From: Rheinheimera lutimaris
GTDB lineage: Bacteria > Pseudomonadota > Gammaproteobacteria > Enterobacterales > Alteromonadaceae
Direction: 5' to 3'
Assembly (NCBI RefSeq): GCF_013283795.1
Contig: NZ_JABSOD010000012.1
Coordinates: 1 to 64,000, forward strand
DNA: 64,000 bases
Positions 37,396 to 39,408 of the stretch are shown in pieces. Numbering within the stretch: position 1 is the stretch's first letter; each line of letters begins with the position of its first letter. Under the pieces are notes generated by a model. It did not search any database. It was not told where the DNA came from and saw nothing but the letters and a program-made list of their open reading frames with translations. The translations under genes were made by a program, and so were the position numbers.

Positions 37396-37827
37396 ATGAA
37401 AACAATTGCGCTGGTTGCACACGACGGTAAAAAGCAGGCATTGCTGCAATGGGTTGCGGCGCATAGCGCATTTTTTGCTGACAAAGCGCTGGTGGCCACC
37501 GGCACCACCGGCAAGCTGGTTTCAGAGGTGTTAGAAAAAGAAGTGCTATGCCTTGCCAGTGGCCCTTTAGGAGGCGATCAACAAATTGGTGCAATGATTG
37601 CTGAGCAGAAAATTGATTGGTTGGTATTTTTTTGGGACCCGCTGTCATCACAACCGCATGACCCGGATGTAAAAGCATTAATACGTTTAGCGGTAGTATG
37701 GAATATTCCGGTGGCTTGTAATCAGGCGACAGCAGATTTTATCGTTCATTCCAGCTTATATCAGCAAGATTATCAGCGTGAAGTGCCGGATTTTTCGGTA
37801 TACCAAAAGCGACTGGAGACAAAATAA
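37396..37827 (+). CDS. mgsA: Methylglyoxal synthase
   Basis: Converts dihydroxyacetone phosphate to methylglyoxal and phosphate, a bypass that relieves sugar-phosphate stress. The 143 residues match the family: ALVAHDGKKQALLQW at the N-terminus, ATGTTGKLVSE phosphate-binding loop (about 34-44), SGPLGGDQQIGAMI with catalytic Asp61, FFWDPLSSQPHDPDVKALIRLA, and NIPVACNQATADF. It is convergent with the CsrB-like RNA gene. CsrA and carbon flux are linked in other bacteria, so the neighbourhood is suggestive, not proof of regulation. Confidence 0.95.
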   Translation: MKTIALVAHDGKKQALLQWVAAHSAFFADKALVATGTTGKLVSEVLEKEVLCLASGPLGGDQQIGAMIAEQKIDWLVFFWDPLSSQPHDPDVKALIRLAVVWNIPVACNQATADFIVHSSLYQQDYQREVPDFSVYQKRLETK

Positions 37828-37894
37828 TTATCATGGTTTGATGGTTGTTTAACCGGTATGAAAGCTATCTGTTTAGTGTGAGATTATTTATTGC

Positions 37895-37930
37895 AGACAA
37901 AGAAGGTAGGCCGCAAACTGCGCGGCCACC
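37895..37930 (-). terminator. Terminator of the CsrB-like RNA
   Basis: GGTGGCCGC and GCGGCCTACC (minus strand) pair through a 6-bp GGCCGC core and a GGT/ACC base with one bulged base. The T-rich TTCTTTGTC follows. Confidence 0.7.
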
Positions 37931-38240
37931 TAAGGTCCTGTTTCGTCATCCTGTCGATACTATCCTTAGCATATCATCCCTGGCTCCGTCCCGGAGTGTT
38001 CCCAAAGCGTCCAGCCTGTCCTGTCGTCCTTAAACATTATCATCCTGATAATGTGCTCTCATCCTGAGAGTGTCCTGTTTCGTCCGTGCAATTCTCAGCG
38101 CAGTTGAAGAATCTGAAAAAAGGCCTGCTCATCCTGAGCGTGTTCTGTTATTCATCCTTGTGCTATCCTAGCGAAATACTGCGTCCTGCAGTTATACCTT
38201 GTCATCCTGACCAGCTGTCTATCCGTTGACGAGTTAAGTA
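37895..38240 (-). ncRNA. csrB: CsrB/RsmZ-like CsrA-sequestering small RNA
   Basis: On the minus strand about 340 bases contain 20 GGA motifs, against roughly five expected by chance. Nine read CAGGA and three AAGGA, matching the CsrA consensus. Several sit in the loop of perfect hairpins whose stems differ in sequence but keep pairing: 38034-38054 (9-bp stem), 38056-38070 (6 bp), 38127-38139 (5 bp), 38162-38172 (4 bp), 38178-38192 (5 bp), 38201-38211 (4 bp). Most loops are simply GGA flanked by CA and TG. The RNA ends at a terminator-like stem (37905-37930) and a T-rich tail. A TACTTA at 38239-38244 may be the -10. CsrB-type RNAs bind many CsrA dimers and relieve translational repression. The exact 5' end is inferred. 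Confidence 0.83.
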
Positions 38241-38487
38241 TGTACTCTACTGCGGGGCTTGAGCATGGCTTTTAAGAAAAAAGCGCATTGTAATATTATT
38301 GTAAAGCATGCCATTTTTGTTTTTTAATGATATTTATCAAATGCTTATGTTTGTTTTGTGTGGTGGGTTTTACGGTTAAATAGCGTTTAAGCTCACTCAT
38401 TTGTGAGATATATCTCACAACAAAGCCTGCCGTTAAGTTGCGATATGCTACAACCAGGCTGCGAACCTGTGGTTAAAAAGGAATATT
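38241..38487. other. Divergent regulatory region, CsrB-like RNA / DyP peroxidase
   Basis: About 250 AT-rich bases between two divergent transcription units. It holds two ATTGTAA direct repeats 11 bp apart (38287-38293 and 38298-38304), about 55-70 bp upstream of the predicted RNA start. It also holds a 20-bp palindrome near the peroxidase gene. I find no exact TGTAAG-N6-CTTACA box of the kind bound by GacA/UvrY. Confidence 0.5.
38401..38420. promoter_or_regulatory. Perfect 20-bp palindromic operator candidate
   Basis: TTGTGAGATATATCTCACAA is a perfect palindrome 67 bp before the DyP start. A TATGCT at 38444-38449 could be the -10, placing the palindrome centre near -45, a usual activator position. 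The arms resemble TGTGA/TCACA, but the 8-bp spacer differs from the 6 bp of CRP sites, so the bound regulator is unknown. Confidence 0.65.
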
Positions 38488-39408
38488 ATGGCCAGAGAGC
38501 AACTGGGAATTTGTGCTGAAGCGAATTTACACGGCAGCTATTTATTGTTTAATGCCCTTGAAGGACATGAGCGGGTGTTGCGGCACAAACTGGCCCGGTT
38601 ACCGCAATTATTCGACCGCCTTGCTGAACATTTTTCTGAAGCCATGTTAACCGGTGTGGTGGCAGTTGGCAGCACCTTTTGGGATTTACTGTATCCGGAT
38701 GCCCGGCCGGCCGGACTAACAGCGTTTGCGGACCACAGTACAGATGATATTGATCTGGCTCCGGTACCTTTGGATATCTTGATCCAAATTCGGTCAGACC
38801 GGCAGGATGTAAATGTTATTGCCAGCCTGCAGGTGCAACAGTTGTTACAAGGGCATGTTGAACTGCAGGAGCACTTGCAAGGCTTTCGTTACCTTGATGG
38901 CAGAAATTTGAGCGGATTTATTGATGCGCCTTATTGCCCCAAAGGTCGGGCCAAGCGCCAGGCCGCATTGGTTGATGCAGCGCAGCAGCCGGTGTTTGCT
39001 GCCGGCAGTTATGTATATCTGCAGCGATTGTCGTTCGATGCTCCGGCCTGGCAACAATTAAGCTTGTCGGAGCAAGAAGAAATCATGGGTTATGACAAAG
39101 TTAGCGGTAAAAGGCTGGCTGACGGTTTGATTTTACCTGACAGCCACCTGGCGGTGATGCAGCCGGATATCGAAAGTCCAATGGCGGTGGTGCAGCAGAA
39201 TATGCCGTTCTGCCTGCTTCCGCAGCAGGGGTTAATTGAGCTTAGTTATGCTGCTAATCCTGCGGCGTTGGCCTTGCAGTTGGCTAACCGGCTTGGTCAG
39301 GCTCAGAATAATGGCTACGATTTGCTGCTAAACTACTGTCGCATTGAGCTCAGTGCCGCGTTTTTTGCACCTTCCATCAGCTTTCTGGAGTTGTCAGCGC
39401 TAGTGTAA
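38488..39408 (+). CDS. DyP-type heme peroxidase (YfeX-like)
   Basis: Predicted dye-decolourising-type heme peroxidase, using H2O2 to oxidise organic substrates; cytoplasmic because no signal peptide is present. The 306 residues have the two ferredoxin-like halves of the family. The distal motif reads GFIDA (143-147) with the essential Asp146 kept but the final Gly of GxxDG replaced by Ala. The distal Arg is Arg180 in YLQRL and the proximal heme ligand His220 in PDSHLAVM. Length and cytoplasmic location fit the YfeX/B-type group. It stands alone downstream of a palindromic operator candidate. Confidence 0.85.
   Translation: MAREQLGICAEANLHGSYLLFNALEGHERVLRHKLARLPQLFDRLAEHFSEAMLTGVVAVGSTFWDLLYPDARPAGLTAFADHSTDDIDLAPVPLDILIQIRSDRQDVNVIASLQVQQLLQGHVELQEHLQGFRYLDGRNLSGFIDAPYCPKGRAKRQAALVDAAQQPVFAAGSYVYLQRLSFDAPAWQQLSLSEQEEIMGYDKVSGKRLADGLILPDSHLAVMQPDIESPMAVVQQNMPFCLLPQQGLIELSYAANPAALALQLANRLGQAQNNGYDLLLNYCRIELSAAFFAPSISFLELSALV

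Follow-up and report, generated by a model that had tools for sequence, protein, structure and literature searches.

The csrB gene of Escherichia coli is preceded by a site, TGTGAGAGATCTCTTACA, centred at -183/-182 and bound by phosphorylated UvrY (PMC4682653). Pseudoalteromonas fuliginea, which belongs to another family of the order, produces three GGA RNAs that bind CsrA, Pf1, Pf2 and Pf3, verified by EMSA or by a glycogen assay, and Pf1 has a GacA-type box upstream, like csrB of Rheinheimera (PMC9927453, PMC11882849). The Csr RNAs of Shewanella oneidensis, CsrB1 and CsrB2, are UvrY-dependent and are associated with a TGTAAGN6CTTACA box (PMC3171408). This tandem pair, of about 420 nt, surrounds a transposase gene, a genomic place different from that in Rheinheimera. 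In Alteromonas macleodii, the A(N)GGA RNAs Aln1a-c have been interpreted as a Csr antagonist system and, unlike Rheinheimera csrB, have their three starts together in a single intergenic region of 404 nt (PMC5864184). A literature search, with subscription journals largely outside its reach, found no paper that mentions both CsrB and Rheinheimera; three mention Rheinheimera together with CsrA, and the best matches among the literature on Csr RNAs mention neither Rheinheimera nor Alishewanella.

Here we describe a locus in the genome of Rheinheimera lutimaris, found on the minus strand of a 64-kb stretch of DNA (the window), which is very probably csrB, the gene for a CsrB-type RNA and predicted CsrA antagonist (Table 1). 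It resembles E. coli csrB in its array of GGA hairpins, its length class, its UvrY palindrome at about -180 and in the cross-matching of covariance models, and the start of the E. coli gene, GTCGACAGGGAGTC, is similar to that in R. lutimaris, GTCAACGGATAGAC. The two differ in their terminators, in the spacing of their hairpins and in their neighbours, which are yqcC and syd in E. coli and mgsA and dyp in R. lutimaris.

Table 1. Positions of the csrB features in the window, with the csrC gene found elsewhere in the genome
Feature	Position	Strand	Remarks
CsrB-type RNA (csrB)	37905..38230	-	about 326 nt, both ends inferred; RF00018 match, own covariance model, 20 GGA
GGA hairpin, 9 bp	38034..38054	-	5/8 aligned pairs changed on both sides
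GGA hairpin, 6 bp	38056..38070	-	stem search and pair count
GGA hairpin, 5 bp	38127..38139	-	stem search and pair count
GGA hairpin, 5 bp	38178..38192	-	absent from the original prediction
GGA hairpin, 5 bp	37984..37996	-	absent from the original prediction
GGA hairpin, 4 bp	38162..38172	-	3/4 aligned pairs invariant
GGA hairpin, 4 bp	38201..38211	-	outside the consensus fold
GGA-free hairpin, loop ATTCTTCAACTGCG	38092..38119	-	consensus fold, pair count
Terminator hairpin GGCCGCGCAGTTTGCGGCC, then TACCTTCTTT	37909..37927	-	sequence and alignment of relatives
-10 hexamer CATACT	38237..38242	-	inferred from promoter alignment
Conserved upstream element TTTACAATAATATTACA with TTACA twice at a distance of 11 bp	38289..38305	-	alignment of 27 same-genus promoters
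UvrY/GacA operator TGTGAGATATATCTCACA, perfect 18-bp palindrome	38402..38419	.	centre about -180 from inferred start
mgsA	37396..37827	+	PF02142; convergent neighbour of csrB
DyP-type peroxidase gene	38488..39408	+	PF20628, PF04261; divergent neighbour of csrB
Second Csr-type RNA (csrC)	G000:C16:24854-25165 (L150 1687-1999)		about 313 nt; 8 GGA, hairpins; starts about 177 bp past its operator

Family assignment and structure of the csrB RNA

The locus had been predicted from the sequence as an unannotated RNA of the CsrB family, and at curated gathering thresholds Rfam indeed returns nothing anywhere in the 64-kb window. With a relaxed threshold, the CsrB family RF00018 matches positions 37895-38212 of the minus strand (model positions 1-356, 44.1 bits, E 8.6e-11), which falls short of the curated cut-off of 71 bits; the RNA is therefore filed as CsrB-type by its features and not as a member of RF00018 accepted by Rfam. 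The three other relaxed-threshold matches near the locus were weak, belonged to eukaryotic or viral families and were set aside. When the whole genome is searched with RF00018, the same locus is the sole match (34.7 bits, E 9.8e-8). Across 98 related genomes, counting this one, RF00018 reaches E 0.001 or better in 56, and the cut-off is passed by 12, none of them among the 59 of the same family and all among the 39 others of the order. At the same E-value the family is found in 28 of 30 relatives within the genus. It has no match in the remaining two (G004 and G006), both of which were then found by our own csrB model, and RF00018 was rejected as a detector for the entire genus. That model, R2, gives 365 bits over 37899-38230, a score to be read with the locus being one of the model's own sequences, and it matches all 31 same-genus genomes, 14 of which lie outside the 17 sequences used to build it. 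The E-values of this and of our second covariance model, R1, are rough. Together with the covariation described below, these matches bear out both the family and the strand that had been proposed, as well as the conservation expected in related genomes, where the stems are compensated. The RNA is a further case of a known kind of control RNA, one that the standard Rfam models miss in Rheinheimera.

The original prediction had counted 20 GGA trinucleotides on the minus strand of 37895-38240, nine as CAGGA and three as AAGGA, and a recount gives exactly these numbers. No other 340-nt stretch of the window, on whichever strand, holds more than 10, or half as many. In 2000 dinucleotide shuffles of the region the mean was 11.7 GGA and the maximum 19, compared with the 20 observed, while a second set of 2000 gave a mean of 3.7 and a maximum of 9 for AGGA, compared with 13. 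The arrangement of the motifs in hairpins was assessed with a control in which the GGA positions were fixed and the remaining bases shuffled 1000 times. Seven GGA sit in the loops of hairpins whose Watson-Crick stems have 4 bp or more (control mean 1.7; 2 of 1000 shuffles reach seven). When the stem must have 5 bp or more, five remain, a number reached by none of the 1000 shuffles (mean 0.43). Five of these hairpins had been named beforehand, with positions and stem lengths that proved accurate, and two further 5-bp GGA hairpins can now be added.

It had also been claimed, at that point without proof, that the hairpins covary. We aligned 17 same-genus copies of csrB, and the RNAalifold consensus, derived from that same alignment, contains 62 pairs; in 25 of them, one or more of the sequences carry changes at both positions. 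Overall 96.0% of the cells are paired and 47 are changed on both sides. No shuffle out of 500 reached 25 of 62 compensatory pairs, although such shuffles ignore relatedness, and displacing the pairing partners along the alignment by 1 to 3 columns left just 2 to 9 pairs with changes on both sides. The claim of covariation thus now has numbers behind it. The total folding energy is ordinary (z -0.52, with 29 of 100 shuffles folding as well), and in this respect the region behaves as would a sequence with no RNA function, whether a stretch rich in GGA or purines by chance or a repeat array that has decayed. Conservation of csrB in 31 of 31 genomes with compensatory changes contradicts this reading, as do the fixed distance of the operator and the GGA-loop statistics above their controls, and no ORF of at least 60 aa runs along the minus strand over the locus; we consider a chance origin hardly credible. 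Coding on the opposite strand has in its favour a TTG ORF of 62 aa at 37845-38033 of the plus strand, but this ORF has no Pfam match and the base changes at the locus fit pairs in a minus-strand RNA and go against plus-strand coding, which makes the probability of such a gene negligible.

It is conceivable that the RNA is Csr-like and binds CsrA while its main job lies elsewhere, for example in base pairing through the GGA-free hairpin that it contains. A pattern search for the loop core of this hairpin (CTTCA..GCG) is positive in 20 of the 31 copies within the genus. The pattern is missing from the other 11 and from all eight copies outside the genus, and the loop is not unusually conserved, given that 121 of 329 windows of the same size show conservation as high or higher. 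We regard this alternative as very unlikely, and the conservation rank gives no support to the hairpin as a second active site. The preferred reading remains that of a CsrB-type RNA presumed to act through its GGA sites.

Promoter, operator and surroundings of csrB

The -10 hexamer, read from 38242 to 38237, places the start of csrB near 38230. The extent originally proposed holds broadly, although its upper end, 38240, lies beyond this inferred start at about 38230. Relatives have CATAAT or CATAC(T) at the -10 position, and GATAAT in two cases. The conserved upstream element precedes this start by about 60-75 bp and is kept in most of the 27 promoters aligned, and the terminator is built on a GGCCGC-type stem in most relatives, with a different stem in G019 and G021. 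Compared with its consensus, the csrB operator is perfect in 29 of 31 same-genus genomes and has a single mismatch in the other two.

A genome-wide count of the strict form of the operator, TGTGAGANATNTCTCACA, yields 42 sites across the 31 same-genus genomes; G020 has none and each of the others has one or two. All 42 precede a Csr RNA, 29 of them csrB and 13 the second RNA, csrC, discussed below, and a control with the reversed pattern yields no sites in the 31 genomes. A third operator-like site in this genome (C5:27310-27327, TGTGAGAATCGGCTTACA) fits the loose pattern only, has no Csr-like array in the adjoining stretch and was rejected. The sequence GTRAG is seen beside the csrB operator (window 38391-38401), at a place similar to that of a half-site in csrC.

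The original prediction located the RNA downstream of mgsA. The two genes are convergent here, but the steady neighbour in the genus is the DyP-peroxidase gene, which adjoins csrB on its upstream side in 30 of 31 genomes: 27 of 28 relatives, this genome, and G004 and G006. By comparison, mgsA falls inside the flanking sequence examined in 8 of 29 same-genus genomes, which is an underestimate because the flanks of the relatives extend for only 500 bases. Among named MgsA proteins the closest, at 89-90% identity, come from Rheinheimera pacifica and R. oceanensis. Among the 80 named loci around mgsA, 36 were scanned and three carry the csrB RNA: it is whole at the mgsA locus of R. pacifica DSM 17616, and the copies of R. 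oceanensis and R. pacifica BIGb0367 lie about 3 kb from mgsA and are cut at the end of the locus.

A second, predicted Csr-type RNA at the csrC locus

The operator palindrome TGTGAGATATATCTCACA recurs once, identically, elsewhere in the genome (C16:24667-24684), ahead of a second Csr-type RNA. The original prediction had spoken of "the" Csr antagonist RNA of the organism; its Csr-type character stands by sequence, but it is one of two such RNAs in the genome. The second gene has promoter-like elements (TTGCCA-16-TAAATT) and a terminator (GGGGCGATAAG..CTTATCGCCC-TTTTT), and the order at the locus is engB (yihA), a cytochrome c4 gene (cc4), the RNA, a methyltransferase gene and yihI. Its genomic place, and more weakly a model match, make this predicted RNA a probable ortholog of E. 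coli csrC. The order in E. coli K-12 is polA-spf-yihA-csrC-yihI, and this genome likewise has Spot 42 and engB before csrC and yihI after it, with cc4 and the methyltransferase gene interposed. The match to Spot 42, which as in E. coli lies on the far side of engB from csrC, scores 66.4 bits (L152 293-412) against an Rfam cut-off of 80. This copy of the RNA has 8 GGA compared with 14 in E. coli CsrC (PMC11882849), and its operator palindrome is perfect where that of E. coli is weak.

Thirteen copies of csrC were aligned to build the covariance model R1. Of 49 pairs, 12 are changed on both sides, a number reached by none of 500 shuffles and compared with 1 to 5 in slid controls. R1 matches all 31 same-genus genomes, 18 of them outside the 13 sequences of the model, and the RNA is accompanied by cc4, engB and yihI in all 31 and by the methyltransferase gene in 30. 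An operator is located at -176 to -182 in 29 of the 31 genomes (19 without mismatch, 6 with one and 4 with two), G021 and G023 having none at this distance. In several relatives the palindrome is kept through changes on both sides, as with TGTGCG..CGCACA in G004, G019 and G022, which is expected for a symmetric binding site. A half-site follows the csrC palindrome, TGTAGGA 5 bp on in 7 of 12 relatives and TGTGAGA in the csrC of this genome, and in E. coli csrB a similar element, TGTAGGAGA, follows the palindrome at the same distance of 5 bp (PMC4682653). At L149, about 1590-1860, there is a near-identical tandem repeat of ~125 bases, joined at a single N, which may be an artefact of the assembly.

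Even with an E-value limit of 1, the Rfam family for CsrC, RF00084, does not match the csrC locus of this genome. It finds nothing elsewhere in this genome either, nor at the csrC locus of any of the 31 same-genus genomes, three of which had short matches elsewhere. Over the 98 genomes it has zero matches above its cut-off, and its weak matches, in 18 genomes, overlap with the place found by R1 in G078, G041 and G087. Both of our models were cross-checked on six stretches of E. coli K-12 totalling 43 kb. The best match of R2 is the annotated csrB (6e-10), followed by csrC (0.0041). For R1 the best match is the annotated csrC, at only 18.5 bits (6.8e-5) and largely through the terminator and GGA hairpins, followed by csrB at 12.2 bits (0.0059). 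Given such a low score, place carries more weight than score in assigning csrC.

Outside Rheinheimera, R1 finds 16 more genomes, with 13 of the matches at the csrC locus. Ten lie between engB/cc4 and the downstream genes, and three (G037, G038 and G056) directly before yihI in the absence of cc4. The other three (G033, G059 and G084) are off-locus, look like matches to the terminator only and were discarded. In the 12 on-locus cases other than G038, no operator within 2 mismatches is present in the 500 bases upstream, and the matched stretches with short flanks hold 5 to 16 GGA. In the 13 on-locus genomes (L249-L259, L261 and L268) the engB/cc4/yihI locus has a related RNA in which GGA are fewer or scattered, and GGGAGAAGTGTC before the terminator is common to several of these RNAs.

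With more doubt than confidence, we put forward the reading that engB-cc4-[RNA]-yihI is one ancient CsrC gene, a common inheritance of Enterobacterales and Alteromonadales-like bacteria. Outside Rheinheimera, with few GGA and no recognisable UvrY operator, the RNA may be a CsrA sponge independent of UvrY or may have another job, while Rheinheimera, with the strictest operator, may have come to a two-target UvrY regulon consisting of csrB and csrC only.

Protein partners and the predicted circuit

The genome encodes the proteins with which these RNAs would work. CsrA is present in one copy of 66 aa with one difference from the E. coli protein in the first 55 residues. UvrY is 62% identical to its E. 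coli counterpart over 211 of 218 residues, the next best match being 31%, and BarA is 36% identical over 911 of 918 residues. For CsrD, the best match to the E. coli protein is 28% over part of its length, among 12 matches, and with matches so weak and partial no ortholog is claimed.

The anatomy of the genes, their conservation, the operator and the encoded partners can be read directly from the DNA, and the steps of regulation may be modelled on the family. UvrY phosphorylated by the kinase BarA would activate transcription of csrB and csrC. CsrB would then use its GGA sites to bind several CsrA dimers, and the sequestration of CsrA would free the mRNAs that it represses or protects. CsrC, with the same operator, would act in parallel with CsrB.

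Rheinheimera would then have a full BarA-UvrY-CsrA-CsrB/CsrC circuit, hidden until now by Rfam thresholds, and the two new models recover both RNAs in all 31 genomes searched. The csrC locus provides a place-based handle on an RNA that diverges too fast for homology search, and makes it possible to test how old the CsrB/CsrC pair is. Finally, the count of strict operators predicts that the direct high-affinity targets of UvrY in the genus would be the two RNA genes.
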